Counted from the stretch's first letter, positions 17,811 to 64,000 are shown. The stretch is DNA of 64,000 nt from a virus (IMGVR_UViG_3300020160_001966:1-64000), one strand, 5' to 3'. Made by a program: numbers and translations. The notes: generated by a model from the sequence alone, not told the origin.

Positions 17811-17812
17811 AA

Positions 17813-18625: not shown

Positions 18626-18653
18626 ATATGAATATTTATAACGACTACGATTA

Positions 18654-19058: not shown

Positions 19059-19092
19059 TCATTTATTATTTATAATAGAGTTAAATAATTTC

Positions 19093-20655: not shown

Positions 20656-20663
20656 AATAATAT

Positions 20664-29979: not shown

Positions 29980-29984
29980 ATTAA

Positions 29985-31413: not shown

Positions 31414-31416
31414 ATT

Positions 31417-32723: not shown

Positions 32724-32726
32724 AAT

Positions 32727-46171: not shown

Positions 46172-46786
46172 ATGGGAAAAGAGAAAACATTTTTAGATTA
46201 TGATTGGACTCCTGTTATAGCTTTTGAAAGTGGTGGCGAAAAGTATTACAATAAATTCTTAAAAAAAATGACTTGGCCAAGGGGGGCTTCAGGAATAACT
46301 ATGGGAATAGGTGCAGATCTTGGATATATGAGTGAAAAGGAATTTGATACTTATTTTTCAAAATATTTCACTGATGATGAAAATAAAAAATTAAAATCAA
46401 CAATAGGATTAAAAGGTGAATTAGCTAAAAACGCATTACATAAAGTTCAAAATATAGAGCTTTCTTGGGAAAATGCTTCAGAGGCATTTGTTGATTGGAC
46501 GTTACCCAAATTTTGGAATTTGACCAATGCTCTATGGTCAAAAATGGATGAATTGTGTGAAAATGCTCAAATCGGATTAGTAAGTATTGTGTTTAACAGG
46601 GGAGCATCAACTAAAGGATTTTCTAGAACAGAAATGCTAAACATAAAACCATTGGTATTAAAAAAAGATTACAAAGGAATAGCTAAAGAGATACGTTCCA
46701 TGAAAAGGCTTTGGGAGGGTAAAAATATGGATGGTCTTATAAAAAGAAGAGAAGAGGAAGCGAGAATGGTAGAAAGTTGCATTTAA
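46172..46786 (+). CDS. Endolysin (T4-lysozyme-like muramidase)
   Basis: The 204-residue enzyme shows FESGGEKYYNKF with the likely catalytic Glu (E19), followed by ASGITMGIGADLGYMS. This is the Glu...Gly-x-x-Thr-x-Gly-x-Gly pattern of GH24/T4-lysozyme and pesticin-like muramidases. The C-terminal GLIKRREEEARMVE also matches that group. It cleaves murein at the end of infection after holin action. It ends the lysis cassette and overlaps the convergent methyltransferase by four bases. Confidence 0.8.
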   Translation: MGKEKTFLDYDWTPVIAFESGGEKYYNKFLKKMTWPRGASGITMGIGADLGYMSEKEFDTYFSKYFTDDENKKLKSTIGLKGELAKNALHKVQNIELSWENASEAFVDWTLPKFWNLTNALWSKMDELCENAQIGLVSIVFNRGASTKGFSRTEMLNIKPLVLKKDYKGIAKEIRSMKRLWEGKNMDGLIKRREEEARMVESCI

Positions 46787-47322
46787 TCGACAACTATGCA
46801 ATACGTGGGGCATCCATCCTCTGTTAAAAAATCTATTTTTAAATTTTTATCTCTGCAAAATTCATCGACAGCATTAACTACGCTTTGAAATATATTTTTA
46901 GAATAATCGTGACCACATATATGTTTACCTTTTTTAATTTTTCTATAAGAAACTTCTAAGTCTTTTTTGACACCCTCATAACTATGATCTCCATCAATAT
47001 AAATCAAATCAAAATATCCGTCTGGAAAATTATTTAATACATTAAAACTACATCCCTTATGTAGATGAATAATGCTGTTATTATCGTATTCGTTTTTAAG
47101 TTTTAAATATTCATCGTTCAAATTTGTCCATACGACATTATTTCCATCTTTATCACCAGAACACATTTCACCATCGAAAATATCTATTAAATGTAATTCT
47201 TTGGGTTCCATTTTCTCATATATTATTTTTGAAAAATCTCCTTTAAAAACTCCAATTTCAGCTACAATTATATTTTTAGGCAATATATCTAAAAGATCGT
47301 TTCGCGTTTTTAATATTTTCAT
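46783..47322 (-). CDS. SAM methyltransferase
   Basis: The 179-residue class I enzyme has IIVAEIGVFKGDFSKII (motif I), LHLIDIFDGEM, and FDLIYIDGDHSYEGVKKDLE, a Methyltransf_24 signature with D-G-D-H. It overlaps the TylF-like gene start by four bases. It is likely to methylate a sugar made by the second glycosyltransferase cluster. Confidence 0.75.
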   Translation of the reverse strand: MKILKTRNDLLDILPKNIIVAEIGVFKGDFSKIIYEKMEPKELHLIDIFDGEMCSGDKDGNNVVWTNLNDEYLKLKNEYDNNSIIHLHKGCSFNVLNNFPDGYFDLIYIDGDHSYEGVKKDLEVSYRKIKKGKHICGHDYSKNIFQSVVNAVDEFCRDKNLKIDFLTEDGCPTYCIVVD

Positions 47323-47963
47323 TTTTTTATAATTTTAATTCCAGTATAATCTATCTTTTCAATAGAAATATTAACATTTTCAAAATATTCATCAAATGCT
47401 TTTTTCGAACCTTGCCAATGACCATAATCATCGACAATTAAAACTCCATCATTTTTTAATTTAGGATATAACACATCTAACTCTTTTTTTGTGGATTTAT
47501 ACCAATCAGTATCTAATCGTAATAAACTTATATCTTTTGGAATATTTTTATCACAATTTAATGTTTCAACTATATCACCAACAATATAATGCACATTATC
47601 TACAGGAAATGTTGATTTGGATAAATTGTTTTTCACATCATTCAAATCAGCATATGCTTTCACAAGTGGCAAATTCATGATATCAATCGCTTTTCTACCA
47701 TCACAATCAATATCAGCATCTTCTGGTTCAGTCATTCCTTCAAATGTGTCATACAGCCAAACGTGTCTATTAAACATTTTGTGATGATTCAAATATTCCA
47801 TTATTCCTAAAATATTACCACCTCTCCATACCCCACATTCAACAAAATCGCCATCTATATTTTGCAATCTAACATATTCTAAAGAATCGAATAAAGATCT
47901 TATTCTTTCCAAAGAAGTCATTGTATATGGGTGTACTATTTCTATAAAATCGTTTATATTCAT
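47319..47963 (-). CDS. TylF/macrocin O-methyltransferase-like protein
   Basis: The 214 residues match the TylF (PF05711) family: TSLERIRSLFDSLEYVR, GDFVECGVWRGGNILGIMEY, VWLYDTFEGMTEPEDAD, ISLLRLDTDWYKSTKKELDV and GVLIVDDYGHWQGSKKAFDE. These enzymes O-methylate sugars. It is part of a three-gene minus-strand group with a second methyltransferase and a glycosyltransferase. Confidence 0.85.
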   Translation of the reverse strand: MNINDFIEIVHPYTMTSLERIRSLFDSLEYVRLQNIDGDFVECGVWRGGNILGIMEYLNHHKMFNRHVWLYDTFEGMTEPEDADIDCDGRKAIDIMNLPLVKAYADLNDVKNNLSKSTFPVDNVHYIVGDIVETLNCDKNIPKDISLLRLDTDWYKSTKKELDVLYPKLKNDGVLIVDDYGHWQGSKKAFDEYFENVNISIEKIDYTGIKIIKK

Positions 47964-48691
47964 AAATTATTATCGTTTTTAAAACTTATCATTTTTTCAA
48001 TTTTTTTATGATAATTTCCAGAATCTGTCGTGAAATGTATCGCGGTGCCGTTAAAATTATTCATATGATAACCTTTAGCTGTCACTTCATCGCTAAAAGA
48101 ATCGTTGTATAAATCTTTTCTATATAAAAACACATTCAAATAAGGTTGTTCCAAACAATTATTGCCCTTATCCATATTATTTAACATATATTCTTCAATA
48201 TCTCTAAACACATCCACCATATTGTTATTGAAACCAAAAATACCAGCATTCATGCCATATATATTTTTTTTAAAAATATCATCCCTTTCATAATCATTTA
48301 TAAGATTACCGCCCCACAATTCATGTGACATCAAATCCGTTTCTTTACACAAATATATTTTATTTTCTCTTATTTTATCAAATAAAATGTCAGGATTTTT
48401 CAAAAAAAGAATATCCGAATCACAAAATAATATTTTGTTGAAATCTTTTATTTTTTCAAACTGATATATTTTGAATTTATTAGCACTAGATTGAAATAGA
48501 TTTTCATTTTTTGAAAAAATAAAATAAGGTTTTTTTTGAAATTCAATCTTTTCCAATATTTCATTTTCAAATTCACTTATAAACAAAAAATCACCATCAT
48601 AACCATTCTTATACAAACTTTCTATGCATAATTTCGTTAAATTTAAATACTCTATATTGTATCCTAAAGTAAAATATATTAATCTAGACAT
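47960..48691 (-). CDS. Glycosyltransferase (family 8-like, DSD motif)
   Basis: The 243-residue GT-A-like protein begins MSRLIYFTLGYNIEYLNLTK. It has KILFCDSDILFLKNPD with the D-S-D metal motif and GMNAGIFGFNN. This pattern resembles GT8 and related transferases. It diverges from the plus-strand glycosyltransferase series. Confidence 0.7.
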   Translation of the reverse strand: MSRLIYFTLGYNIEYLNLTKLCIESLYKNGYDGDFLFISEFENEILEKIEFQKKPYFIFSKNENLFQSSANKFKIYQFEKIKDFNKILFCDSDILFLKNPDILFDKIRENKIYLCKETDLMSHELWGGNLINDYERDDIFKKNIYGMNAGIFGFNNNMVDVFRDIEEYMLNNMDKGNNCLEQPYLNVFLYRKDLYNDSFSDEVTAKGYHMNNFNGTAIHFTTDSGNYHKKIEKMISFKNDNNL

Positions 48692-48763
48692 CGACCTAAA
48701 AATTTAATAAGATAATAACAATAATCAAGTTGATATTTGATCGAAAAAAGATAAAATATTATT

Positions 48764-49561
48764 GTGAAAATATGCATAGGTTTTAATCTGCACCATCCTT
48801 TAAATGAAAGAGTTTTAATTTCACAAAAAAGTCTATTGAGACTTAAAGAAAAATTTAATATAGAGTTGGTAAATTTAGATTTTAAGAATAGCGATAAAGT
48901 CAATGATAGTGATGATTTTAAAAATTTATATGTCTTGAAAGAGCATAGTAGTTTTTATACAAATGGTAGCAGTAGAGATTTACCAATGATCCATGATATG
49001 TTTAATTGTTTAAGTGATTACTCAGATGAAAATGGTATAGACATGTTTATATTTGTAAATTCGGACATAATAATATCCGATAGATTCATAAAACATATAT
49101 TAAGCACGAATTTCGACACTTATTGTGCTGCCAGATTAGCTATAGGAAATATTGACTCTTTAGACGAGCAGCCTAAAGAAATTTCACATTATCAAGTTGC
49201 TGGATTTGATGCATATGCTGTAAAAACAAAGTGGTGGAAAGAAAATGGACATAAATTTCCAAAATACATTTATGCTATCAGTGGTTGGGATGTTGATTAT
49301 GCCACTAAGATGAAACGATACGGTAATTGCGATTTTTGTAACAAATGGCCAGCGATGACTTTTCATATAATGCATGAAGAAATATCATCGAAAGATTCTC
49401 CAGAATTAATTTATAATAAAAATCTTTTATGGAATATAAACAAAGAAGATTGTGATATTTGGCATAATTATCTTTACAACGTTTTATTAAAAAGAAAAGG
49501 TGGTAATTATTGGCATCCTTTCGACAATGAAGTTGAATTAGAAAGAATTTATTTTAAATGA
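48764..49561 (+). CDS. Glycosyltransferase-like protein
   Basis: This 265-residue protein starts with GTG 48764 (AAAATA lies 5 nt before). It begins KICIGFNLHHPLNERVLISQ and has MFIFVNSDIIISDRFIKHIL with an NSD motif, YQVAGFDAYAVKTKWW and ISGWDVDYATKMKRYG. This is a GT-A-like layout. It begins a chain of six overlapping plus-strand genes. Donor and acceptor unknown. Confidence 0.65.
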   Translation: MKICIGFNLHHPLNERVLISQKSLLRLKEKFNIELVNLDFKNSDKVNDSDDFKNLYVLKEHSSFYTNGSSRDLPMIHDMFNCLSDYSDENGIDMFIFVNSDIIISDRFIKHILSTNFDTYCAARLAIGNIDSLDEQPKEISHYQVAGFDAYAVKTKWWKENGHKFPKYIYAISGWDVDYATKMKRYGNCDFCNKWPAMTFHIMHEEISSKDSPELIYNKNLLWNINKEDCDIWHNYLYNVLLKRKGGNYWHPFDNEVELERIYFK

Positions 49562-50469
49562 AATATTACGTCGATAAAAATTATTTGAAATTGGAAGATT
49601 TGGAATTGGTTACAGAATTATTATTTTCTTATCAACTTTTATCAAATGATGCTAAAAATTACATAAACAATAATCGTTTTTGGGAGTCTGGTATATTTTA
49701 TAATTTAAATACGGTAGAATATTCAAACGAAAATGAATGTGATTATTTCGCATTACCTTTCAAATTCAAAAGTTCAAAAGAAGACAGATTTTTAAAAGTT
49801 TTACACAAAGCTAAAGAATTTAATAAAAAATTAATATGTTTGAATAACGATGATTTTGGTGGTGATTACGAAATACCTAGCGATATAATTCTCTTTAGAA
49901 CATCTTTCGATTATAAATCTAAAATGGAAAATGAATACGCTTTTCCAGTTTTTATACCAGATATAATAAAAAACTCTAAAGGATATTCGAATAATTTATC
50001 TATAGGTTTTTGTGGAGATAGTAATAGGCCAGTTAGAAAAGAAGCTTTATTTGAACTCAAAAAAGGAAATATTCCATTGAATCATGATGAAGTGTTTTCT
50101 TTTTTTCAAAACCCAATAATTGATAAAAAAATTGGCAGGGAAAGATTTTTTAAAAATTTAGAGAATAACATTTTTGTATTATGCCCAAGAGGTTGTGGAA
50201 ATTTTTCATATAGATTTTACGAGACAATGTGTTATGGTAGAATACCGATTTTCATAAACACTGATTGTGTTTTACCTTTTGAAAACTTAATAGATTATAA
50301 AAAAGAAATAGTTTTTGTCGAAGAGAGTGAGTTGACAAACATAAACGATATAATTAAAGAATATTGTGACAAAAAAGATTTAATATTACAACAAAAAAAG
50401 TGTAGAGAAATATGGGAAAATTACCTATCACCTAATGGTTTTTTAAAAAATATAGAAAATATATTATGA
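49558..50469 (+). CDS. Exostosin-like glycosyltransferase
   Basis: The 303-residue GT-B-like protein carries the exostosin signature in its C-terminal half: FVLCPRGCGNFSYRFYETMC, then GRIPIFINTDCVLPFENLID. It overlaps both neighbours by four bases. A homologous gene lies at 51118-51993. Exostosin-fold enzymes add sugars such as GlcA or GlcNAc. Confidence 0.7.
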   Translation: MKYYVDKNYLKLEDLELVTELLFSYQLLSNDAKNYINNNRFWESGIFYNLNTVEYSNENECDYFALPFKFKSSKEDRFLKVLHKAKEFNKKLICLNNDDFGGDYEIPSDIILFRTSFDYKSKMENEYAFPVFIPDIIKNSKGYSNNLSIGFCGDSNRPVRKEALFELKKGNIPLNHDEVFSFFQNPIIDKKIGRERFFKNLENNIFVLCPRGCGNFSYRFYETMCYGRIPIFINTDCVLPFENLIDYKKEIVFVEESELTNINDIIKEYCDKKDLILQQKKCREIWENYLSPNGFLKNIENIL

Positions 50470-51146
50470 AAATTTATACAACCTTTTCATCTTCTCATAA
50501 AATTCTTTTTGATGAGTACTTTTTACCGTCATATAAGAAAGCGAACGCTAATAAACAATTTTCCCTATATGTTTCAGAAATGGAGCAGATAAGCAAAAAC
50601 GGTTCTTACAGCACCTATGGATTTAGAGAATCGACTTCAGATAAATTGAAGGTTATTATAAAGGCAATATCGGATAATATGGGGGAATGGATAATATTTT
50701 CAGATCCAGATATTCAATTTTTTGAAGGTTTTGCGGATGATGTTTTAAAATATTCTGATAAAAATGTAGATATATATTGTCAATGTGATACTCCAAAATG
50801 TCCAGAAAATGTCATAATGTGTACTGGGTTTATGATTATAAATTGCAATGAGCAAATTAAAAAAACATTCGAATCATCTTTAACATACATTAACAGTTTC
50901 GAGCATGATCAATATGCTTTTAATTATTTCGCAAGAGATAATAAAATTAAGTTTAAGACTTTACCAGAAGACAAATATTATACCATAGCATATAACACAG
51001 GAAATGCTGTTTGGAATGGTGAGACGTATAATAACATTCCTAAAAATATTCTAATGCATCATGCTAACTGGACTGCTGGTATAGAAAATAAAATAAAACT
51101 TTTAAAATATATTAAAGATGAAATTACAGGAAAAGTTACTATTTGA
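50466..51146 (+). CDS. Nucleotide-sugar transferase-like protein (DPD motif)
   Basis: The 226-residue protein has EWIIFSDPDIQFFEGFADDV (D-P-D metal motif), MCTGFMIINCNEQIKKTFES and FEHDQYAFNYFARD. This is the pattern of the nucleotide-diphospho-sugar transferase family. It overlaps the next gene by 29 bases. Confidence 0.65.
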   Translation: MKIYTTFSSSHKILFDEYFLPSYKKANANKQFSLYVSEMEQISKNGSYSTYGFRESTSDKLKVIIKAISDNMGEWIIFSDPDIQFFEGFADDVLKYSDKNVDIYCQCDTPKCPENVIMCTGFMIINCNEQIKKTFESSLTYINSFEHDQYAFNYFARDNKIKFKTLPEDKYYTIAYNTGNAVWNGETYNNIPKNILMHHANWTAGIENKIKLLKYIKDEITGKVTI

Positions 51147-51993
51147 TACCACATATTTAAGGATAAAATATCCTTTAACGCCATATCCTTCTTATCATCA
51201 AGGTTTGTATTTAGAAGAATATTTTTGTGATTATTTTATAAAAAATTGTTTACACGAAGTATATGATAGATATTACCTTCCTATATTTTGGACCAACATA
51301 TATTTAAAAAATTGGTTACACAATTACAGAAACCCAGTGCTGCAATGTTTCTTAGACACTTTGCCAAAAAATCAAAAATATTTCACCGTTTGTCAACACG
51401 ATGACGCTCCTTCTGAAAATATAGATGGTTTTGACATCAAAGTTTTTTCCGCTGGTGGTAATTATTCTAAAGGCATACCAATACCTTTAATATGCGCCCC
51501 GATGAATGTCGATAATATTATAAAGGATAAAAATATTTTTTGCAGTTTTGTCGGATCTTTAACACATGATGTTAGGAAAAAATTTATAGAAACATATAAA
51601 AATGATGAGGAATTTTACATATCTTCCAGAGAATGGAATTATGGAATAAACGCGCAACAATTAGATTTATTCTCAAATATAACATCCAAGTCTCATTTTA
51701 CTATATGTGCGAGAGGTTATGGTAAACAAAGTTTTAGATTTTACGAGACTTTACAATTAAGAAGCATACCAGTATACATTTATGATAATGATCCATATCT
51801 GCCTTTTTCGGACGTTATTGATTATAATTCTTTTTCTATAATACTAAATGTTAAAGATATTGGCAAATTAAAAGATATTTTAAAGTCTATTGATTTTAAT
51901 AAAAGGATTGAAATGATTGAAAAGGGATGGGAAATATATAAAAATTTCTTCACTTTTGAAAAAGTAACAGAAAGAATTTTAAAAAATGTCTAA
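51118..51993 (+). CDS. Exostosin-like glycosyltransferase
   Basis: The 291 residues contain FTVCQHDDAPSENIDGF and the exostosin core FTICARGYGKQSFRFYETLQ followed by RSIPVYIYDNDPYLPFSD. It is a relative of the product of 49558-50469, which suggests duplication within the cluster. Start ATG 51118 lies inside the previous gene; later starts are possible. Confidence 0.7.
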   Translation: MKLQEKLLFDTTYLRIKYPLTPYPSYHQGLYLEEYFCDYFIKNCLHEVYDRYYLPIFWTNIYLKNWLHNYRNPVLQCFLDTLPKNQKYFTVCQHDDAPSENIDGFDIKVFSAGGNYSKGIPIPLICAPMNVDNIIKDKNIFCSFVGSLTHDVRKKFIETYKNDEEFYISSREWNYGINAQQLDLFSNITSKSHFTICARGYGKQSFRFYETLQLRSIPVYIYDNDPYLPFSDVIDYNSFSIILNVKDIGKLKDILKSIDFNKRIEMIEKGWEIYKNFFTFEKVTERILKNV

Positions 51994-52759
51994 TACGAAT
52001 GGTGTAATATATTTTGAAGGTGTTGGTAAAAATAAAGGAGGATTATGTGACAGGTTAAAAGGTATGTATTCTTGTTGGATTTTATCCGAAAAATTGAATA
52101 AAGATTTTATATATAATATACCTCATCCAGTAGCTTTAAAAGTTAAAAATTATAAACAAATAAATAGCGAGGCTTTCACGGAATTGAATGTGATAGATTG
52201 GGAAAATTATTTACAATATTCTTCAAAAATAAAAAATTTGGATTTTCCAGAATTAAATTATAAAATACACACAAATATTGATTTCTCTAACGATTTCAAT
52301 CATTATAATAGTTTTCAAATTTTTATAAAACAATTTTTCAATTTAAATCAATTTGAAAAAGAACATAATGTTCAAAAATACGATATAGGTATACATGTAA
52401 GATGTGGTGGAGAAATGGTTGAATGGAACGATTATGATTTTGGTAAAAAAATAATAGAAACGGAATTTAAAAAAAGATTGGAAGAAATAGCAAATTTTAA
52501 AAAAGAAATATTTTTATGCTCAGATTCCAAAAAAGTTTTAGATATGGTTGATAGTTATAATATAAAAAACATATACTTGAGTCCATATGAACCCAATCAT
52601 ATTGATAGAGGTTTCAATGTTACAGAAAATGACTATATTTCAACTTTTTATGATCTATTGACTTTGGCTAATTGTCGATCAATATATGCGACTCTCGGAG
52701 AGTTTGCTAAAACATCTTCTAGAATTTACAACAATGAATTACAATATTTTTACAACTGA
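51986..52759 (+). CDS. Fucosyltransferase-like glycosyltransferase
   Basis: The 257-residue GT-B-like protein contains GGLCDRLKGMYSCWILSEKL near the N-terminus and the donor-binding motif DIGIHVRCGGE (H-x-R), then EIFLCSDSKKVLDM and STFYDLLTLANC. These are features of alpha-1,2 and alpha-1,6 fucosyltransferases. It overlaps the next gene, which has the same motifs. Confidence 0.65.
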   Translation: MSNTNGVIYFEGVGKNKGGLCDRLKGMYSCWILSEKLNKDFIYNIPHPVALKVKNYKQINSEAFTELNVIDWENYLQYSSKIKNLDFPELNYKIHTNIDFSNDFNHYNSFQIFIKQFFNLNQFEKEHNVQKYDIGIHVRCGGEMVEWNDYDFGKKIIETEFKKRLEEIANFKKEIFLCSDSKKVLDMVDSYNIKNIYLSPYEPNHIDRGFNVTENDYISTFYDLLTLANCRSIYATLGEFAKTSSRIYNNELQYFYN

Positions 52760-53654
52760 AAAAGAACAATATCTAGTGGGTAATATCGAGTATGGTGGTT
52801 TTGGGGCCATGTATGCTAGAAGAAAACTCATAATGCAAATAGCTCAAGCCTTTAACAGAATACCCATCTTTAGATATTCTAAAGATTATGTATACGATGA
52901 TCCATTTTTAGAATTTAATCCAAATATAAATGATTTAAAAAATAAAGGCATAAAAGAAATTAAAAAATTTGATTTCACTGATAATGATGAGGTAGCGGTT
53001 TTTTTCGATTTCGGTTCGTATTGGAATAGTGAAAACATGCATAAGTATCAATGCTGGAGTCCTGATAAAGAAGATTATGTTCAATATTCTGGATATATGT
53101 ACAATCTTTTAAAGTTAAAGGAAGAATATTCATTAAAGGTAGAAGAAAAGATAGATTTTTTAAAACATAAGTATGATATAAAATCTTTCGATGATTATAT
53201 AGCAATACATTTAAGAAGAGGCGATAAAATAACAGAAACTAATTACATTAACGATGTTACATTGTTTGATTATGTGGAAAATTTAAACATAGGGAATAAA
53301 ATTTTTGTTACTAGCGATGAGTTGGATTATATATATGAAATTGAGCAAAAATATCCAAATTTTGAATTTATTTACGATTCTGAAGAAAAAAGATATGGGA
53401 ATAAAACTATTTCTAATGTTGATATGGTGGCTATGAATCCTTCATTAAAAGAACAAGAGACTTTAACATTTGTAAAAAATGTGGAGATTTTAAAAAGATG
53501 TAAAGTTGTTATTGGACCTCATAGCGCACAAATGACTAAAATAGCAGGTTCTATGAATTCTTATTTAAAAAATAAAAAGACTTTGCTTCTTATAAATACA
53601 GAAAGCGATAAATGGGAATTAGAGACTATGGGTAGCTCTGAGCAAACTGCTTAA
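52734..53654 (+). CDS. Fucosyltransferase-like glycosyltransferase
   Basis: I start at ATG 52734 (MNYNIFTTEKEQYLVGNIEY), inside the end of the previous gene; a Met 48 nt upstream is also in frame. The 306-residue protein has IAIHLRRGDKITE (H-x-R-R-G-D), KIFVTSDELDYIYEIE and VVIGPHSAQMTKIAG, the GT23-like fucosyltransferase pattern. It overlaps the convergent GT at its 3' end by 29 bases. Confidence 0.7.
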   Translation: MNYNIFTTEKEQYLVGNIEYGGFGAMYARRKLIMQIAQAFNRIPIFRYSKDYVYDDPFLEFNPNINDLKNKGIKEIKKFDFTDNDEVAVFFDFGSYWNSENMHKYQCWSPDKEDYVQYSGYMYNLLKLKEEYSLKVEEKIDFLKHKYDIKSFDDYIAIHLRRGDKITETNYINDVTLFDYVENLNIGNKIFVTSDELDYIYEIEQKYPNFEFIYDSEEKRYGNKTISNVDMVAMNPSLKEQETLTFVKNVEILKRCKVVIGPHSAQMTKIAGSMNSYLKNKKTLLLINTESDKWELETMGSSEQTA

Positions 53655-54432
53655 AAATATTTTTCATAATAGTCTTGACTTGTTGTTCTGATGTATCTGG
53701 AACACAATTATTCCAAGCTGGTAAGACTCCATGTTTTTGTTTGAAATATTCAGCCCCCCTTTGAATATTATCAGACCAGTCTTTTCTAGGTCTAATTGTA
53801 CTGCTATTTTCCGAACATTCTATTTCATCCAAATATTCACAACTATTGGCCAGATCAGGCCAATTCCAATAAGGTGTGGTATAGCCTTCCTTTGAAATTC
53901 TATAAGAATGCTCAACATGCTCAAACGCATTTACAAAATTTTCATCTATAGTTCCACATTTATATAGAACTTCTCTACTATAATAACAGAACGCCCCAAC
54001 ACTGTGAGTATTTATAGACAATTTTATATCCCCATAATCCACTATATATCTAGGACAAGGTTTCCCCTTAGATACCCCATTTTTATTAGCTGGACCATGA
54101 TATGCAAAACAAAAATGTTGTATACCAGTTATTTTTCTAGCACGAATATATTCGTTAAAAACATTCGGGTCTTTTACAATTATATCGTCTTCAATAATAA
54201 AAATATGGTCCGCTCCAGATTTAATAGCATTTTGAAATAAAATATTTTTACTTTTACCCACTCCCAAATTTGTTTTATTTTTTATATAAAAATCATTTCT
54301 TTCAACCTCAACATCGATCTTACCATCATTAACAACTCCAATAAAATCAACATTATTAGATTTTTTAACAGATTGATAACATTTTTTAAAAAAATCTGTT
54401 CTATCGCAAGTAACTATTCCAACAAATACCAT
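53626..54432 (-). CDS. GT-A glycosyltransferase (family 2-like)
   Basis: The 268-residue protein begins MVFVGIVTCDRTDFFKKCYQ and has DHIFIIEDDIIVKDPNVFNE with the EDD metal motif and SVGAFCYYSREVL. It is a GT2-type layout with a C-terminal W/C-rich part. It closes the second sugar cluster next to two small virion genes. Confidence 0.7.
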   Translation of the reverse strand: MVFVGIVTCDRTDFFKKCYQSVKKSNNVDFIGVVNDGKIDVEVERNDFYIKNKTNLGVGKSKNILFQNAIKSGADHIFIIEDDIIVKDPNVFNEYIRARKITGIQHFCFAYHGPANKNGVSKGKPCPRYIVDYGDIKLSINTHSVGAFCYYSREVLYKCGTIDENFVNAFEHVEHSYRISKEGYTTPYWNWPDLANSCEYLDEIECSENSSTIRPRKDWSDNIQRGAEYFKQKHGVLPAWNNCVPDTSEQQVKTIMKNIFKQFAQSYP

Positions 54433-55379: not shown

Positions 55380-55589
55380 TTATTTTAAATGAAAATGTAA
55401 GGCTTTTGTAATTTTTCTCAAAATATCTCTATCAGATACCTTCTCGGCCTTTAATCTAGTTACTTCCTTTTTAAACGCATTAACAAATTCAGAAGATAAA
55501 TTAAAATTTCTAGGGTAAAACATCCTAGACTTTGTTAATATTGAACCGTAACTCTCTAAAACTGTATTGACTTTTTTATAAAACTTCAC
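55380..55589 (-). CDS. Small basic protein with leader motif
   Basis: The 69-residue product uses GTG 55589; TATAAATA lies 5 nt upstream. It begins KFYKKVNTVLESYGSIL, where V-L-E before S fits the capsid-targeting pattern. The rest is a basic helical domain (VNAFKKEVTRLKAEKVSDRD, LRKITKALHFHLK). A packaged DNA-binding protein is possible; function unknown. Confidence 0.5.
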   Translation of the reverse strand: MKFYKKVNTVLESYGSILTKSRMFYPRNFNLSSEFVNAFKKEVTRLKAEKVSDRDILRKITKALHFHLK

Positions 55590-55597
55590 ATTATTAT

Positions 55598-56305
55598 TTA
55601 TATCTTAATAATAGGAGTTTTCTCATCGTTCAAAGCTTCTTTTTGTTCATACAAAAGCTTTTGCATTTCTGCCAATTCGTTAATATCTAAAAGAGATTGA
55701 TCCTCACCATACATATTACCATCATCTGTAACATACATGGCTATTTGAGCAATTCTTTCATGCGGTTGACCATATATGTCGATAATAGCTGGTGCATTAT
55801 CTTTTTCAAAGAAAGGTAGTTCTTCAGCACCTTTTTTATACTTCTTTAAGATTGCTTTAAATAAATTATCAATTTCTTCAACGTATTTAGGATCAACTTC
55901 TCTTACACCATTCTTTTCAATAGGAGGCATTAAATCTCTAGTACATATGAAAATGACATCGAAATGCGCCATCGATTTCCTAACTTTAAATAAAGAATTT
56001 TCTATAAATTTATCGTTAAAACCTTTAACTCCATTACCATAACACCACATGGAATATATTAAATTATCTAAAGGACATCTATCAAAAACAACATTTTGAT
56101 GCAATGTGTAGGGTTCAGCTTCAGCGCATAAGATGTCTAAAATTTCTTCCTGCAATTTTGGAGTAGTATTTTTAGAATGATTTTTCTTTTTAATCAATTT
56201 CCTATAATTACTATTAATTAGTTGATATTTAGGCCATTTTTGCAAAAAATGTTGAATTATTGTACTTTTACCAGTACATGCGGCTCCACTAAATGCAATT
56301 CTCAT
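55598..56305 (-). CDS. P-loop kinase (AAA_28/NadR-like)
   Basis: The 235-residue protein has a Walker A GAACTGKST at residues 7-15, an Arg/Asp segment NVVFDRCPLDNLIYS and FIENSLFKVRKSMAHFDVIF. This suits the AAA_28 nucleoside or nucleotide kinase group found in T4-like phages. It probably phosphorylates a nucleoside derivative; the substrate is unknown. Confidence 0.75.
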   Translation of the reverse strand: MRIAFSGAACTGKSTIIQHFLQKWPKYQLINSNYRKLIKKKNHSKNTTPKLQEEILDILCAEAEPYTLHQNVVFDRCPLDNLIYSMWCYGNGVKGFNDKFIENSLFKVRKSMAHFDVIFICTRDLMPPIEKNGVREVDPKYVEEIDNLFKAILKKYKKGAEELPFFEKDNAPAIIDIYGQPHERIAQIAMYVTDDGNMYGEDQSLLDINELAEMQKLLYEQKEALNDEKTPIIKI

Positions 56306-57602: not shown

Positions 57603-58400
57603 TTAAAAAGTGGGTTCTGGCAAGTTTGCACTTGAAGATGATCTTTTAGGTTTAGGTGATGGTTTAGGGGATGGGGAAGGCGATGCTTTAGGAGTTGCTT
57701 TTGAAGATGGTGAGGGGGTTGGTTTTGGTGATGGTTTACCATTCTCGGAATCTTGAGGTTGATTTTCATCAGATGATGTAGACATCGCAACATTCGCACC
57801 AACATGTGCCAATAATGTTCTAGCACCAATAGCACCTAAAACTGCAACTAAAATTTCTTGCATATTTTTTGGTGAAGATTTAAATATTGTTTTAAAACCA
57901 TTTATAAATTCTGGTTTTGAAAAAATAATATTTAGTATTTTTTGAATAATAGCCATTATACCTTTAAAAACATAAGCATTTTTGGATGCAGCACTTATAG
58001 CAGAACCGCCTTTCCAAGCCACTTTCAAAACCTTTAATCTACCAATCATTGGTATTGAGAAGAATATACTCAATAAAAGTTCAAATTTATTTTCATCTGA
58101 AGGATCGGATTGGTATTTTTTTAAATTTTTTTCAACATCTGGCCAACTGGTAATGCCTGTTGGATCAAGACATGATAAAAATTCCCCAATTGGATGTTCG
58201 AGTATTCCTTGCAAATCGATCAATCCATCAGTGCTTCTTTTTATGGATTCCATAAAATCTGAAGTTAAACTATATTTTCCAGAAAAATATCCTGCTATCG
58301 GTGCTGCTATAGCGGCTAACAACGCTAACGGCACTGCTTCATTTATAAGTTGTACATTATTTTTATAATTTTCAAAAATTAACTCGCAGTCTTTATTCAT
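57603..58400 (-). CDS. Candidate packaged protein with DPTG-SWP domain and Ser-Pro tail
   Basis: The 265 residues start NKDCELIFENYKNNVQLINE with I-N-E before Ala, which resembles the leader of the right-edge gene (NKDCYLIFEQY). Residues about 75-130 contain LDPTGITSWPDVEKNL and IPMIGRLKVLKVAWKGGSAI, the domain shared with 19501-20655. A Ser/Pro/Lys tail (PSPKPTPSPSSKATPKASPS) ends the protein. AATAAATA lies 8 nt before the ATG. A membrane-active injected protein is one possibility. Confidence 0.5.
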   Translation of the reverse strand: MNKDCELIFENYKNNVQLINEAVPLALLAAIAAPIAGYFSGKYSLTSDFMESIKRSTDGLIDLQGILEHPIGEFLSCLDPTGITSWPDVEKNLKKYQSDPSDENKFELLLSIFFSIPMIGRLKVLKVAWKGGSAISAASKNAYVFKGIMAIIQKILNIIFSKPEFINGFKTIFKSSPKNMQEILVAVLGAIGARTLLAHVGANVAMSTSSDENQPQDSENGKPSPKPTPSPSSKATPKASPSPSPKPSPKPKRSSSSANLPEPTF

Positions 58401-58473
58401 AATATCTTTATTTATTTAGTTTTTTTTTATTTATGATATCAATTTAAGGTTTGAGTTTATAATACAAATATTT

Positions 58474-59067
58474 TTAATTATATACAAGAGCAGGATTCCT
58501 CCAGACACTACCATCCCACCATTCAAAACCTTGAAGATTCTTTTTATAGGACAAAAAATGTACATAGTATTGAGATATGTATAAATACTCGTAACCTTCT
58601 TTGAATAATTTGTCTATCATAAAATAATAAGATAGAGTTCCATAAGAATGTTTTTTACTCGACTCATCCCAAACCATCATTGGAAAGTAAGGTATATTAT
58701 CTCTAAAATATAAAAGTCCGCAAAAACAATCATCGAAAAAGAATTTGAAAGTATTGGGGTCTTCTAGAAGAATAGGTAAAGTTATACTACAGTATTTTTC
58801 TTTATTCGCCATTTGAGCGATTTCCAGTACATCTTTATCATATGTTATATTAATTTTTGAAAGTCTTTTCTGTCTTTTTTTAGATATGGGTTTTAATTTC
58901 AACCTCGAAGATCTAACTTGATACCAAGAATCGCTTTTAGGAAATTCAGGCAACCACCCGTTCTCAAACATATATTCGGATGTTTCATGCTCTTGTTTTG
59001 CTGTAACAGTCAAATAATTGTGTCCATCGGTATACAAGCCGTCATTGTGATCAAAAAAAATTTTCAT
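58474..59067 (-). CDS. Arginyl-tRNA:protein transferase-like (ATE/GNAT) protein
   Basis: The 197 residues resemble the arginyltransferase family. SWYQVRSSRLKLKPISKKRQ parallels the Cys-rich-to-basic segment before the GNAT part, though the canonical Cys residues are not kept. LSYYFMIDKLFKEGYEYLYI, then YKKNLQGFEWWDG and W near the end parallel the GNAT-like core that ends in a W-rich motif. Known ATE proteins add Arg to protein N-termini (N-degron pathway). It is coupled to a methyltransferase with a 17-base overlap. The call is by pattern and should be tested. Confidence 0.5.
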   Translation of the reverse strand: MKIFFDHNDGLYTDGHNYLTVTAKQEHETSEYMFENGWLPEFPKSDSWYQVRSSRLKLKPISKKRQKRLSKINITYDKDVLEIAQMANKEKYCSITLPILLEDPNTFKFFFDDCFCGLLYFRDNIPYFPMMVWDESSKKHSYGTLSYYFMIDKLFKEGYEYLYISQYYVHFLSYKKNLQGFEWWDGSVWRNPALVYN

Positions 59068-59812
59068 TTGTTTTTTTAAATTTTAATTCAAAAGGCTCCA
59101 CATAAGGATAACCATCTTCTATATAAAGTTTGTTGTAATTTAAAATTTCATCAGTATGGTACTTTATACTTCTTTCGCCAAATGAAAAATTGACTTCTGG
59201 TAAGTGATTAACGCTTAAACATTCAAAACCATATTTTTCAGCTATTTTTATCACATTAGATACAGTTTGGGGATAGTACTTGAAAAAATTTTCATAATAT
59301 TTCCTATTTTGTGTTTTTTCAAAAGTATCAGAAACATCAAACGTTTCTTTTAGAAATAAAATTCCTCCGTCTGCAAGAACTATATTACAATTTTTTAAAG
59401 TATTTTCTATTTTGGAGTGAAATAAACTCTCTAAAAAAACACAATGGGTCATGTCTTTTCCAGTATAATTTTCCATGTCTTCGACTTTAAATACGCAATT
59501 TGGAAAATTTGTTCTGGCTTGTTTTACACATTCTTCACTATTAGAAATGCCTTCAGCGTAACATATTTTACTTAATTTATCAACCATATAACCTGTACCA
59601 CATCCCATATCAACTACCCTAGAATTTTTGTCGATACCGCTTTGCTTGATAATATGATCCATGAATTCTTTTTCATCTTTACCCACTGCAAAATTGCAAT
59701 AAAAGGGAACCTCTAATGGATGACTAAGCAATCCAATTTGAGCGTTGTAAAATTCTCTAGCGTCTTTCCAAGGAACTTCTATTGTTATATAATTCTCACC
59801 AATTTCGGTCAT
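59051..59812 (-). CDS. Class I SAM methyltransferase
   Basis: The 253-residue enzyme has SRVVDMGCGTGYMVDKLSKI (motif I), then DMTHCVFLESLFHSKI and GGILFLKETFDVSDTFEKTQ. The layout matches small-molecule methyltransferases. It overlaps the ATE-like gene, which suggests a shared pathway. Substrate unknown. Confidence 0.7.
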   Translation of the reverse strand: MTEIGENYITIEVPWKDAREFYNAQIGLLSHPLEVPFYCNFAVGKDEKEFMDHIIKQSGIDKNSRVVDMGCGTGYMVDKLSKICYAEGISNSEECVKQARTNFPNCVFKVEDMENYTGKDMTHCVFLESLFHSKIENTLKNCNIVLADGGILFLKETFDVSDTFEKTQNRKYYENFFKYYPQTVSNVIKIAEKYGFECLSVNHLPEVNFSFGERSIKYHTDEILNYNKLYIEDGYPYVEPFELKFKKTNENFF

Positions 59813-59850
59813 ATGTATTATATACTAATAATAAATAAAATTACAAAATA

Positions 59851-60597
59851 TTATTTATTAATAAAATTTTGTAATTTCTTACCACTCTCAGAATTTGATA
59901 TAGCACCCCATGCTTGAGATAATGTTCCTTGTAAAGCTTTTTGCATTGCAGATGTTGAAAAATCCATAACAGCGTTTCCAGCATTTTGTAAAGTATCTTT
60001 CCAAGAATTATTTTCTGGTGGCGTGGTATTACCATCTTTATCAACATTTTCTTCTTTATCATCTGGAATTGTATTATTCTGTTCTATTCCAACCTTAGAA
60101 GATCTTGCAACTCCAAGATGAACGTGATCATAATGATTACCACCAACATTTGATAACCAAATAATCTGGATTCTAAAACCATCTGGTGTATAATATTTGA
60201 AATCTCTACCCTCATAAGGTTTCCAAGAAGTAACATTTGCTCCACAATTTCTAGCAACAGCTATTGCAAATTGCGTTCCAGCCTCAACGTTTCCATTAAA
60301 TGTCGTATTCAAACCAAAATCTGCTGCATATGCTGTCGTATTTCCAACATAATGATCTGACATATACCCCGATTTCGTATTTTTTGTCCCCCTTTTTAAA
60401 GAATATGCTTTCCAATTACCCATGGGTAAAAGCGATATAAGTTTTGGCATGGAACCTCCCCAATCCCCATTTGAACCTCCAGCACTAGGTTGACCAGATG
60501 CATTTGCAACACCCACCAATGACCCTAAAGGGTTTTTATATGCCTCAAGAATAATATTATATTGTTTTAATATATTATGTGTGTCGGAATTAAACAT
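59851..60597 (-). CDS. Candidate packaged zinc peptidase (M15/DD-peptidase-like)
   Basis: The 248-residue protein begins with a leader (THNILKQYNIILEAYKN, I-L-E before Ala). A domain follows with GYMSDHYVGNTTAYAADFG (H82, D93) and GGNHYDHVHLGVA (D157, H158, H160). These form a likely zinc site like that of M15/DD-peptidases, although the H to D spacing is longer than usual. The C-terminal segment (DFSTSAMQKALQGTLSQAW) resembles that of the next gene. Peptidoglycan peptide cleavage at infection start is inferred. Confidence 0.6.
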   Translation of the reverse strand: MFNSDTHNILKQYNIILEAYKNPLGSLVGVANASGQPSAGGSNGDWGGSMPKLISLLPMGNWKAYSLKRGTKNTKSGYMSDHYVGNTTAYAADFGLNTTFNGNVEAGTQFAIAVARNCGANVTSWKPYEGRDFKYYTPDGFRIQIIWLSNVGGNHYDHVHLGVARSSKVGIEQNNTIPDDKEENVDKDGNTTPPENNSWKDTLQNAGNAVMDFSTSAMQKALQGTLSQAWGAISNSESGKKLQNFINK

Positions 60598-60603
60598 ATT
60601 CGA

Positions 60604-61278
60604 TTATTTCATATAGCTACTCATAAAATCTTCGTATTTTTTACCAATAGCCCCCTTTGCTGTATTTAAAACAGAAGATAATGCTTTTTTCATTCCCTCT
60701 TTACTAAAATCCCCACCAGTTAAATCATATACTTGTTGTTTAACATCATCGTATGTACTAGATGCAACATCTCCAATTTTAGACAATGTATCATTTTCTT
60801 CCGAACCATTATCACTTTCATCGTTTGATTTAATATTTGAAACTATTTCTCTTTCGTAATCGGAATTAGGTTTTATATTTAAAGGTGTAACTACCAAGTT
60901 ATTACTATTTTTACCCAAATTTGCAAAATAATTGTACATTTGTTTATCAGATCCAGAGTAAAAATCTATATTGTTTGTGACAGAACCACCACCTTTATCA
61001 TCAACTCTATATATACCTTCAGTATTTCCAAATTCAGAACCTACAGGTCTTCCAGTTCTTTTATCTACTATTTTGACAATAGTACCGTGTGGAAGTTTAT
61101 TATTTGCTACAGAATATCCTGCTATTAATTTGTTGTTTTTATTTCCCATGTATTGCCACTCTGGTTTCAATATACCGTTCCTTATTTCACTTGCAGTTGT
61201 GCTATCAATATCAGCATTTCCATAAGCTGTGGCTCCAAACATATATTTTTCCAAAACAAATTGTTTAAATGTTCTCAC
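60604..61278 (-). CDS. Candidate packaged 3D-domain murein hydrolase-like protein
   Basis: The 224-residue protein starts with GTG 61278 and TATAAATA 5 nt before. It begins MRTFKQFVLEKYMF (V-L-E before K), very like the T4 internal-protein leader MKTYQEFIAEA. Residues about 10-120 contain GYSVANNKLPHGTIVKIVDK, IYRVDDKGGGSVTNNIDFYS and a helix, the 3D double-psi barrel pattern of MltA/RlpA-type murein-degrading enzymes. The C-terminal helices (FSKEGMKKALSSVLNTAKGA) match the neighbouring peptidase-like gene. Confidence 0.6.
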   Translation of the reverse strand: MRTFKQFVLEKYMFGATAYGNADIDSTTASEIRNGILKPEWQYMGNKNNKLIAGYSVANNKLPHGTIVKIVDKRTGRPVGSEFGNTEGIYRVDDKGGGSVTNNIDFYSGSDKQMYNYFANLGKNSNNLVVTPLNIKPNSDYEREIVSNIKSNDESDNGSEENDTLSKIGDVASSTYDDVKQQVYDLTGGDFSKEGMKKALSSVLNTAKGAIGKKYEDFMSSYMK

Positions 61279-61283
61279 GTTAA

Positions 61284-61291
61284 TATTTATA
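61284..61291 (-). promoter_or_regulatory. T4-type late promoter octamer TATAAATA
   Basis: An exact TATAAATA lies 5 nt before the GTG of the 3D-domain gene at 60604-61278. It is representative of many such sites in the window. Confidence 0.6.
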
Positions 61292-61316
61292 ATAAAGAAA
61301 CACTAAATATTCTTAT

Positions 61317-61841
61317 ATGGTTGGAAAAAAAGATACAGTAATGATATTTGAAAAATATCGCAACGTTTTAGCTGAACAACAACAAAACAATAATATACAG
61401 TCTATAATAAATCAAATAAACACTTCAGCTTTAGCTCCAGAAGTTAAACAAGGTCTAGTTTCTTTATTAAAAAATCCCGAAGTTGCATCTAAATGGCAAA
61501 GTGGTGATGCTGATACTGTGAATGCTGGTGATTCAAATTTTGCTAAAGAATTATCAATGGCAAAATATGGCGCTCCAGATCAAGATTTAGCAAATGCTCC
61601 AGATCCCAATTTTGCTAAAGAAATGGCCGCTGAAAGAGCTAAACAACAAAAGCAATATCCAGAACAAGAAGAAAACGAAGAATCTCCAGTAAATTGTGCA
61701 ACTCTCCCCACACCAGAGGAAAGAAACAATTGTAACGTTAGAAGAAAACAAGTTGCAATCAACAGTTTTTCAAAAATTCAAAATCCAGAGAAAAAAACGG
61801 TTTATAACGATCCTAACACCAGCAATAAAAGCTGGTTTTAA
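61317..61841 (+). CDS. Candidate packaged protein with leader motif
   Basis: The 174-residue product starts with ATG 61317 (CTAAATA 7 nt upstream) and reads VGKKDTVMIFEKYRNVLAEQ with L-A-E before Q. A helical part with VKQGLVSLLKNPEVASKWQS follows, then a repeated PDQDLANAPDPNFAKEM-type acidic/Pro segment and a basic C-terminus. No family recognised. It lies among genes with similar leaders. Confidence 0.45.
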   Translation: MVGKKDTVMIFEKYRNVLAEQQQNNNIQSIINQINTSALAPEVKQGLVSLLKNPEVASKWQSGDADTVNAGDSNFAKELSMAKYGAPDQDLANAPDPNFAKEMAAERAKQQKQYPEQEENEESPVNCATLPTPEERNNCNVRRKQVAINSFSKIQNPEKKTVYNDPNTSNKSWF

Positions 61842-61850
61842 TATAAAAAA

Positions 61851-62171
61851 TTAAACACCCCAACTTGTACCACCGAAAGGATTGCTCCATCCAGTAGTTG
61901 TTTTTTGTCCTATTTCAGCTGGAATGGGTAAAGGTTTTTGTGGTTGATTATCTGTGATTTTTTGCAAAGGAACTCCAAACAAATTTTGATTATCTTTATT
62001 GTCAAAATGAGTCTCTTTCATTTTTGAATAACTATCTCTTTTATCTATAGTAGCGTAAAAAGTTTCAATACAATTTACAATATAATCACATAGAATGTAA
62101 TCTGGAGTATTACATTTATTGTCTAAAGAAAATTTATTAATTAAATCTGTTAGTTCTTTCTTAAATTCCAT
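61851..62171 (-). CDS. Conserved small phage protein, function unknown
   Basis: The 106-residue product begins EFKKELTDLINKFSLDNKCN and continues TPDYILCDYIVNCIETFYAT. This resembles a small helical protein seen in T4-like cyanophages and relatives. A Pro-rich tail ends the protein. The role is unknown. The gene ends ten bases from the convergent plus-strand gene. Confidence 0.5.
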   Translation of the reverse strand: MEFKKELTDLINKFSLDNKCNTPDYILCDYIVNCIETFYATIDKRDSYSKMKETHFDNKDNQNLFGVPLQKITDNQPQKPLPIPAEIGQKTTTGWSNPFGGTSWGV

Positions 62172-62200
62172 ATTAAAATTTAGAAAGATTTTTTAAAAAA

Positions 62201-62563
62201 TCAAACCAAACCGAAAGATTTTTTAACTAATAAATTAATCCATCTATCAAAAGACTCTTTGACTATGGATTTTTTCTTTTTCTTTTTGTCCATGAAAGCT
62301 TTTTTCATAGGTTCTTTTTTATTACCATCTCTATCAACATCCAAATAATCTGGTTTTCTAGATTCTTTTATTTGTTTCTTTTTTGGAATTTTTGCACCAG
62401 ACTCTTTAGCTTTATTTAAAGAAATAGCCACTGCTTGTTTTTGAGCTTTTTTCTTCGTTTTGGGTTTAGAAGTCCCAATTTTACCAGTTTTCTTATATTT
62501 CCCCATTTCAGATTTAATGTTTTTGGAGATTGTTTCTTTAGATTTTCCTTTTTTAAGTGGCAT
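62201..62563 (-). CDS. Lys-rich basic protein (DUF6496-like)
   Basis: The 120-residue product is extremely basic: MPLKKGKSKETISKNIKSEM, then QKQAVAISLNKAKESGA, a phrase common in phage DUF6496-type proteins, and KKKKKKSIVKESFDRWINLL at the end. A DNA- or RNA-binding or head-internal role is likely from its charge. AATAAATA precedes the start by 8 nt. Confidence 0.55.
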   Translation of the reverse strand: MPLKKGKSKETISKNIKSEMGKYKKTGKIGTSKPKTKKKAQKQAVAISLNKAKESGAKIPKKKQIKESRKPDYLDVDRDGNKKEPMKKAFMDKKKKKKSIVKESFDRWINLLVKKSFGLV

Positions 62564-62577
62564 AGTGAAATTATTTA

Positions 62578-63051
62578 TTATTTTTGAAGTGTTTTTCTAT
62601 ACAAATTTAAAATATCCTCATCATTTAAACCCATTTGCTTTAGATAAGTTTCTATGAAAGATATATCATTTGATGTTATTGCTTGTTGAACATCTGCGGA
62701 TTCCAAATCCTTACCAAGTTCTTTCAATTTTTCGACAAGGTGTTTTTTAAATGTTGAAAGTCTTGAGCTATTAATTTTCGTTGCTTTTCCAGTTTCTTGA
62801 GTATTTTCATCTTCAACAGGCTCCAAATTAGACTTAGAGACAGTTTGAATAGGATTAATTCCTGTTGGAGTGTTGATAATGAAAACTTTGAACTCTGTGG
62901 GAGAACCTCCACATTCTTGCAATACATATCCTTCATAATAAGGTGAATTGATTATACCCAACTTCTCAGACCACATAGGATCTACCTTAATGCGGACTTT
63001 TTGAAGTTTTGTTGTTCCAATCGCTTTTTCCAACAGGTTTAAAAATTTCAC
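62578..63051 (-). CDS. Hypothetical protein with leader motif
   Basis: The 157-residue product starts with GTG 63051, TATAAATA 5 nt upstream, and reads KFLNLLEKAIGTTKLQKVRI with L-L-E before K. A beta-rich segment (YEGYVLQECGGSPTEFKVFI) and a helical C-terminal half (TFKKHLVEKLKELGKDLESA) follow. No family recognised. It is one of three neighbouring genes with near-identical leaders. Confidence 0.5.
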   Translation of the reverse strand: MKFLNLLEKAIGTTKLQKVRIKVDPMWSEKLGIINSPYYEGYVLQECGGSPTEFKVFIINTPTGINPIQTVSKSNLEPVEDENTQETGKATKINSSRLSTFKKHLVEKLKELGKDLESADVQQAITSNDISFIETYLKQMGLNDEDILNLYRKTLQK

Positions 63052-63086
63052 TTAATTATTTATACAAATGATGTATTAAAATTCAT

Positions 63087-63497
63087 TTAGTCTTTTTTAC
63101 TAACATCAACCAACCCACCATTTATTTTAATAAATGGTTCTCCCAATAACACCTTATATTCATTTTCCGTTCTATCCGCAATTGAAAATGGAACGTTGGA
63201 ATATTTTTTACCATTTATAGAAACATTAAATTCAACCACTGGTCTATTTTCTTTATTGCCAGATCCTATATGTATTTTTATATCGTCTTTAAATGGACAT
63301 GTTATTATTTTCCCATCTATGGTTTCGAACGTAACTTGTCCGTTTTTAGTAGCTTTGACTATACCATGTAAAACATTGTGTGCGGTATTTCCAGTATCTG
63401 TTTTTGCTTTTAAAAATCCAATACCTTCAATTTCAATATCCTCTACAATACCTAGAGCTTTTTCTAAAATAGTTTTATATAGTTTTATAAATTTCAC
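63087..63497 (-). CDS. Retropepsin-like aspartic protease with leader motif
   Basis: The 136-residue product starts with GTG 63497, TATAAATA 6 nt upstream, and reads KFIKLYKTILEKALGIVEDI with I-L-E before K. The body shows the retropepsin motif FLKAKTDTGNTAHN (D34-T35-G36) and the second motif YKVLLGEPFIKING (about 114-126). This is the pattern of the PF05618/RimK-linked retropepsin-like group. As a homodimer it could be an active aspartic protease. Cleavage target is unknown; packaging is inferred from the leader. Confidence 0.65.
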   Translation of the reverse strand: MKFIKLYKTILEKALGIVEDIEIEGIGFLKAKTDTGNTAHNVLHGIVKATKNGQVTFETIDGKIITCPFKDDIKIHIGSGNKENRPVVEFNVSINGKKYSNVPFSIADRTENEYKVLLGEPFIKINGGLVDVSKKD

Positions 63498-63503
63498 TTG
63501 AAT

Positions 63504-63517
63504 TATTTATATAAATA
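63504..63517. promoter_or_regulatory. Palindromic bidirectional late promoter
   Basis: TATTTATATAAATA is its own reverse complement and holds one TATAAATA on each strand, 5-6 nt from two divergent GTG starts (63497 minus and 63523 plus). One element may serve both genes. Confidence 0.65.
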
Positions 63518-63522
63518 ATAAG

Positions 63523-64000
63523 GTGAATAAAGATTGTTATTTAATTTTTGAACAATATAGATTAATTTCAGAAAATTTAATTCTAGAAAATGTACAAAAG
63601 GCTATAGAAATAAGAAACAAATATTACCCATCTTTAAAATATCAAGGAGAATTGATAGGAGATTATGAAGTTGAGGAAATATACAACGCCTTGGCTAGAC
63701 AGCAAGTGGCGAAAACGATATATTTGAATTGGATATTCCTTTTAATACAAAATCGTGTTCCTAGAATAATGGAAGATTTACAAACAATAGCCAAAAATTT
63801 AAAAGTTTTTAATTCCAAGAGTAGTAAAATAGCAGCAGATGGATACCCAACTCAACTTTTCAAACCAAATAAAGAATTAATATATAAAACACCTCAAGAC
63901 TTATATAAAGTTGTTGAAAATTATATGAATACTGATGATGTTGGTGAAAGAGGATTGTTAAAAACAGCTGAATATTTGAAATCAAAAGGAGAAGTTGGAA
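63523..64000 (+). CDS. Candidate packaged protein with leader motif (partial, right edge)
   Basis: This frame starts at GTG 63523; a stop at 63499 blocks extension, and the frame is open to the window end, giving at least 159 residues. It begins NKDCYLIFEQYRLISENLIL, closely matching the leader of the DPTG-SWP protein (NKDCELIFENY), with I-L-E before N. The rest is helical (QVAKTIYLNWIFLLIQNRVP, then basic regions). No family recognised. TATAAATA lies 5 nt upstream. Confidence 0.55.
   Translation, partial: MNKDCYLIFEQYRLISENLILENVQKAIEIRNKYYPSLKYQGELIGDYEVEEIYNALARQQVAKTIYLNWIFLLIQNRVPRIMEDLQTIAKNLKVFNSKSSKIAADGYPTQLFKPNKELIYKTPQDLYKVVENYMNTDDVGERGLLKTAEYLKSKGEVG

Follow-up and report, generated by a model that had tools for sequence, protein, structure and literature searches.

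Leader-tagged genes of a cargo island in an uncultured T4-like phage and their probable role in head packaging

Why should a cluster of unrelated phage genes begin with the same short peptides? This question is raised by positions 57603-64000 of the DNA analyzed here (64,000 nucleotides, hereafter the window), which corresponds to bases 1-64000 of the incomplete, 116,359-base virus contig IMGVR_UViG_3300020160_001966. A sequence-only reading of the window had pointed out seven genes with leader motifs in this interval (57603, 59851, 60604, 61317, 62578, 63087 and 63523, named by their first position). All seven are open reading frames at these positions and each of them is tagged; four further genes of the interval (58474, 59051, 61851 and 62201) have no leader. 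We consider it very probable that the leaders are capsid-targeting sequences (CTS), which would be cut after Glu by the prohead protease, and that the cargo behind them would be packaged into the phage head and ejected from it.

The contig codes for a gp23 major capsid protein (MCP; Pfam Gp23, 2e-87), a T4-type terminase (Terminase_6N, 3e-17), T4-type tail genes (tail sheath, 3.5e-67, and tail tube) and the large subunit of ribonucleotide reductase. Its MCP shares no more than about 34% identity with that of any isolate, cyanophages being the top matches, and its nearest relatives are IMG/VR fragments. On account of the T4-type gene set and of this low MCP identity, the source phage is assigned to the uncultured T4-like myoviruses of the gp23 lineage.

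According to the scheme that we propose, TATAAATA promoters, with transcripts starting at or beside the start codon, would give rise late in infection to a set of unrelated proteins. The short amphipathic N-terminal peptide of each protein would dock into the prohead's scaffold core, and a gp21-type prohead protease would cut after the Glu of h-x-E (LIFE, ILE, L[NST]E↓A, the arrow marking the predicted cut), thereby freeing the cargo inside the head. The freed cargo would leave with the DNA into the next host cell. The island itself would be a conserved genomic site at which the phages acquire, lose and swap leader-tagged cargo genes.

Leader enrichment and the two leader types

The pattern [ILVF][ILF]E[KSNAQ] was present within residues 5-24 in 25 of the 142 contig genes, whereas 4.2 ± 1.9 were expected (maximum 11 in 2000 draws) from random internal windows drawn from the proteins of the same 142 genes. 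In a 49-kb stretch of cyanophage P-SSM2, used as a control, the hhE site was found in 0 of 63 genes for 2.7 expected. Two laxer patterns, [ILVMF]xE and [ILVMFY][ILVFMYN][EK]x, discriminated poorly and were set aside. The tagged genes are spread over the whole contig and are densest between 57.6 and 67.6 kb: the cluster runs past 64000 to about 67.6 kb (65140, 65449, 66051 and 67378), and other tagged genes lie at 17813, 18654, 19501, 39213, 55380, 80860, 90332, 93064, 111111, 111803 and 112060.

The first leader type resembles that of the T4 internal proteins (IPs), which in the T4 record begin with MKTYQEFIAEA (ipII and ipIII) or MKTFKEFTST (ipI). On the contig it is carried by 60604 (60604-61278, minus strand, GTG start, 224 residues, N-terminus VRTFKQFVLEKY), whose leader VRTFKQFVLE is encoded at 61249-61278, and by 20664 (MRSFSSFINE). 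Distant relatives have 63087 homologues with T4-type N-termini (MKTFKQYIQE, MRSYKEFFYE and MKTFKDFTQS), and further island genes of these relatives begin with MKPFKQFLTE or MITFKQFLTEA. VRTFKQFVLE, MKTFKQYIQE, MKPFKQFLTE and MITFKQFLTEA were aligned with ipII/ipIII, and MKTFKDFTQS with ipI. By these alignments, the VRTFKQFVLE-type leader is the T4 CTS.

The second type, MNxDxxLIFExY (type A), is distinct in sequence from the T4 IP pattern M-K-T-Y/F-x-E/Q-F-h-x-E. It occurs in 57603 (57603-58400, minus strand, 265 residues) as MNKDCELIFENY, followed by a second site, QLINE↓AV (residues 1-22 in all, DNA 58335-58400), and in 63523 (63523-64000 and on to contig position 65136, plus strand, GTG start, 537 residues) as VNKDCYLIFEQY, encoded at 63523-63558; the motif NKDC-x-LIFE-x-Y, previously noted as common to both, is an exact match. 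Relaxed forms are found in 17813, 59851, 61317 and 80860. In 59851 (59851-60597, minus strand, 248 residues, N-terminus MFNSDTHNILKQYNIILEAY), the type A-like leader MFNSDTHNILKQYNIILE, with a predicted cut before AY (DNA 60544-60597), is a variant in which the first site reads ILKQY (IFEKY in the orthologue of the closest relative, L005) and the second site, IILE↓AY, is kept. Gene 61317 (61317-61841, plus strand, 174 residues, N-terminus MVGKKDTVMIFEKY) carries the leader MVGKKDTVMIFEKYRNVLAE. The two remaining tagged genes of the interval, both on the minus strand with GTG starts, are 62578 (62578-63051, 157 residues, leader VKFLNLLE↓KA) and 63087 (63087-63497, 136 residues, N-terminus VKFIKLYKTILEKA, leader VKFIKLYKTILE encoded at 63462-63497).

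When a collection of 2.9 million viral contigs was scanned with a degenerate DNA pattern for type A, at least 118 stretches with at least 114 distinct proteins were recovered. Once stripped of the leader, the cargo fell into at least 26 unrelated clusters, with 18 singletons among the matches listed. The gp23 gene was present on each of the 11 type A contigs searched that measured at least 117 kb. The type A leader was found neither in isolate phages nor in searchable paper text. The leader peptide MNKDSKLIFEAY is a putative head-packaging tag. Type A genes may also adjoin one another, as on contigs L203 (two genes) and L218 (three genes), where their cargoes are mutually unrelated.

It is possible, if doubtful, that MNxDxxLIFExY serves as a further head address, independent of the T4-type CTS and parallel to it, which docks on a different core partner and acts on cargo made from leaderless late mRNAs. 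If two such parallel tags operate, dozens of cargo proteins would be sorted by them, and uncultured T4-like phages would hold an unrecognised repertoire of injected effectors.

Cleavage sites, late promoters and constraint on the leader

The T4 CTS, of about 10 residues, is removed by the head protease (PMC7697877, PMC5694885), and cleavage after Glu is established in T4 and in giant phages (PMC5694885). Predicted sites of the same kind, L[NST]E↓A, frequently trail the type A leader in uncultured viral contigs, and like sites occur in T4 head-maturation substrates (FIAE↓A, TITE↓A and FLTE↓A in the T4 record). The pattern [LIMV][NSTA]E[AGSN] was present at residues 13-32, after the 12-residue core, in 41 of the 109 type A proteins listed, 1.0 being expected. 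If each cargo cluster is represented by a single protein, 10 of 26 among the matches listed have the laxer [LIMV]-x-E-[AGSN] (0.83 expected). Furthermore, the second site QLINEAV is kept in both 57603 and its L005 orthologue. The gene of the candidate protease, gp21 (PF03420), adjoins the scaffold and MCP genes in 10 of the 12 relatives searched, and a conserved ILE-S/K site lies inside gp21 itself.

On the same contig, the head module (15368-21398, minus strand) comprises gp23 (15368-16864), a scaffold candidate (16938-17810) and the leader-tagged core genes 17813, 18654, 19501 and 20664. In the clade of the window, the usual gp21 slot beside the scaffold is filled by extra leader-tagged core genes. 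The core gene 20664 (20664-21398, leader MRSFSSFINES) is flavodoxin/FMN-reductase-like by eye, with no Pfam match.

Late expression would suit any virion part, and the leaders, being short peptides with an amphipathic tendency (mean helical moment of 0.41 vs 0.27), could be N-terminal docking helices for another late structure, such as the tail, the baseplate, a membrane or the portal. We regard this as unlikely: the T4-like leaders specifically match the CTS of internal proteins, protease-type L[NST]E↓A sites come after the leaders, the same leaders are carried by core proteins beside the scaffold (17813, 18654 and 19501), and the cargo is too diverse for a single structural role.

Several of the tagged genes had been said to use GTG starts at a fixed spacing from TATAAATA, and this was borne out. 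The motif precedes the GTG codons of 60604 (promoter 61284-61291), 62578 (63057-63064), 63087 and 63523 by 5, 5, 6 and 5 nucleotides (nt), respectively, and that of the tagged gene 55380, to the left of the interval (55380-55589, minus strand, VKFYKKVNTVLE), likewise by 5 nt. Genes 63087 and 63523 are served by the palindromic TATTTATATAAATA (63504-63517), which consists of two overlapping divergent late promoters located 6 nt and 5 nt from the respective GTG codons. For 61317, CTAAATA lies at 61303-61309. Throughout the clade, TATAAATA or AATAAATA is found 4-9 nt, mostly 4-7 nt, upstream of called ATG or GTG starts (for example at 63504-63517, 61284-61291, 55595-55602, 44856-44863, 20661-20668 and 18633-18640), whereas the control motif TTTAAATA, given an equal bonus by the gene caller, was mostly not at the 4-7 nt spacing. 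In T4 stretches, the promoter is typically 26-28 nt from the next gene start, with a Shine-Dalgarno sequence between them. Since the TATA box and the start of T4 late transcription are about one helical turn apart (PMC2988020), the 4-7 nt spacing implies that transcripts of this clade would begin at or beside the start codon, and that its late mRNAs, unlike those of T4, would be leaderless. No paper linking TATAAATA with leaderless mRNAs was found. A late promoter precedes 42 of 79 leader genes and 203 of 861 others (p 8e-8); this excess, which speaks for the CTS reading, may be inflated by the start choice of the gene caller.

As starts lie 4-7 nt past TATAAATA, initiation must rely on the start region, and the conserved start could be a nucleic-acid signal (for leaderless-mRNA initiation or as recombination homology) of which the peptide is a by-product. 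This is hardly credible in view of the codons: third-position choice at the fixed leader residues matches the choice in the cargo part of these genes. In addition, the leader is kept even where TAAATA is missing within 25 nt, as in 29 type A genes, of which 20 directly follow another long frame, and both the promoters and the codons that follow differ between neighbours. Because codon usage is ordinary, it is the peptide and not the DNA that is conserved in the leader.

The same comparisons bear on the origin of the island. The 12-residue pattern shared by 57603 and 63523 and the tandem type A genes of L203 and L218 would suit an island that arose when a leader-promoter cassette was recently duplicated in tandem, an origin that we judge very unlikely. 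Between neighbouring type A genes, 29-33 of the 36 leader bases are identical against 26.9 ± 2.4 in random type A pairs; their promoters are unrelated, the codons that follow are not common to them, and the same gene set is present in L005. Leader DNA only slightly above background, together with ordinary codon use, gives no sign of recent DNA copying. Taken together, the codon, promoter and neighbour-DNA results exclude the translation-initiation and fresh-duplication readings for most cases. A hydrophobic domain shared by 57603, 19501 and a protein of contig L194 (E about 2e-5) occurs behind both leader types, and therefore cargo and leader have recombined in the past. The leader duplication or exchange put forward by the sequence-only reading thus holds as an old process, one domain being found with different leader types, and fails as a recent duplication, the DNA of neighbours being near background.

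Certain observations weigh against head packaging by these leaders. The protease gene gp21 was found neither on the incomplete 116-kb contig nor on the fragments of its closest relatives; with a contig that is incomplete, absence from the phage does not follow. A clear h-x-E site is lacking in some leaders (MKTFKDFTQSRP in relative G025 and MDNFKEYYNKVILG in relative G016). The type A leader is known from sequence alone, and its cleavage sites are predicted. Finally, gene starts were set by a purpose-made caller favouring promoter-proximal starts.

The island in relatives and its cargo

The interval had been described as a cargo island behind a constant leader, and the comparison of related phages agrees with this description. 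In L005 (86% in 63523), the island is kept gene for gene with its leaders, without the untagged pair 58474-59812 at that junction. Five distant relatives (G003, G005, G016, G022 and G025) carry the same locus. It is flanked on one side by homologues of 67622 (plus 68047 and 69494 where covered) and on the other, where the stretch read extends that far, by homologues of 55380/55598; in the relatives, as here, gene 55380 is the landmark on the island's left. Homologues of 62578, 63087 and 65449 are kept in the five islands, those of 62578 with leaders in all five, next to differing tagged cargo (DUF6267, cytidylyltransferase-like and RNA ligase-like genes). The G022 island holds a homologue of 65140, and that of G025 homologues of 111803 and 112060, both of which lie 47 kb away on the contig of the window. 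For 57603, 59851, 60604, 61317 and 63523, no homologue was found in the five distant relatives.

Cargo is thus swapped at a kept locus, and a single leader sequence is combined with at least 26 unrelated cargo families. Relatives having these genes without leaders, which would speak against an island of this kind, were not seen: for 62578 and 63087, the two cargo families of the interval that have distant homologues, every homologue retains its N-terminal leader, two of the five 63087 homologues being without a clear h-x-E site. These sequence comparisons speak for a turnover of cargo behind leaders that stay constant.

Searches of viral contigs with 59851, 60604 and 63523 gave matches only in L005. 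Among isolate phages, no match was obtained for 63087, 63523, 60604 or 57603, and 59851 gave only a 33-residue match (E 0.9) to a mycobacteriophage tape measure protein. Similarly, no convincing match to 59851, 60604 or 63523 was found in Pfam, PHROGs, NCBIfam or PDB. AlphaFold models from two-sequence alignments had a mean predicted local distance difference test score (pLDDT) of 47 for 60604 and 39 for 59851.

Protein 63087 is a predicted retropepsin-like aspartic peptidase and a candidate member of the RloA/RimB peptidases: it matches PF05618 (7e-9, 36.1 bits for a cut-off of 27) and RloA3 (2.7e-9, far under the equivalog cut-off), and D[ST]GN is conserved. By eye, 59851 displays an M15-peptidase-like motif, SDHY..AADF..HYDHVHLGV, from which a putative enzyme assignment is drawn, and 60604 is double-psi-barrel-like. 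The latter two genes, adjacent and otherwise unrelated, have in common a C-terminal helical tail of about 35 residues (46%, E 9e-5), possibly a second docking element. In 57603, the cargo consists of a tail rich in Pro, Ser and Lys and of the hydrophobic LDPTG..SW domain, which is also present in 19501 and L194. Proteins 65140 and 112060, both small and basic, resemble DUF5754 and, weakly, DUF5872, respectively. Relatives carry lysozyme, RNA ligase-like and nucleotidyltransferase-like cargo; on contig L237, a type A gene of 184 residues codes for a phage lysozyme (PF00959, 1.5e-7), a predicted head-packaged muramidase.

These cargoes would likely act in defence or restriction inhibition, as envelope or nucleic-acid enzymes and as DNA-binding basic proteins. 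The IPs injected by T4 inhibit type IV restriction enzymes (PMC12373910), and by analogy we would first suspect defence inhibition as the role of some of the cargo.

Two untagged gene pairs, both on the minus strand, lie inside the island: 58474-59067 with 59051-59812, the second being S-adenosylmethionine-methyltransferase-like by eye, and 61851-62171 with 62201-62563 (DUF6496). Outside the island, blocks of glycosyltransferase- and methyltransferase-like genes were recognized by eye at 27664-33998 and 46783-54432.

Comparison with known systems

The proteins that phages inject are known mainly from T4 and a few models. If a strict 12-residue tag predicts head packaging, injected effectors could be listed from metagenomes by sequence and tested individually. 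The spacing between promoter and start also predicts that the late genes of this clade are translated from leaderless mRNAs.

The closest likeness is with IPI, IPII, IPIII and Alt of T4 (Tequatrovirus), in which unrelated proteins bear a short N-terminal leader, F-K/Q-x-F-h-x-E. As in the window, a conserved core leader precedes hyperdiverse cargo, with T4-like head genes and island-like clustering. However, T4 has three IPs, and at least 10 are known across related phages (PMC12373910), compared with about 25 tagged genes in the partial genome described here. The additional leader type MNxDxxLIFExY, the late promoters abutting the start codon and the different cargo, retropepsin-like here, set the present system apart from T4.

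In the giant Salmonella phage SPN3US, ejection proteins are likewise head proteins cut after Glu by the prohead protease (PMC5694885), and two diverged paralogues have identical N-termini (PMC5694885). SPN3US differs by propeptides of mostly 100 residues with an A-x-E consensus, and has no cargo island behind one short tag. In phage P1, the N-terminal tag of DarB carries antirestriction proteins into the head (PMC9024508), but it belongs to another phage lineage, has another sequence and is not common to many cargoes. Systems of this kind are known from T4; what is new is how many genes are tagged, that a second leader type extends across uncultured phages, and that the late promoters adjoin the start.

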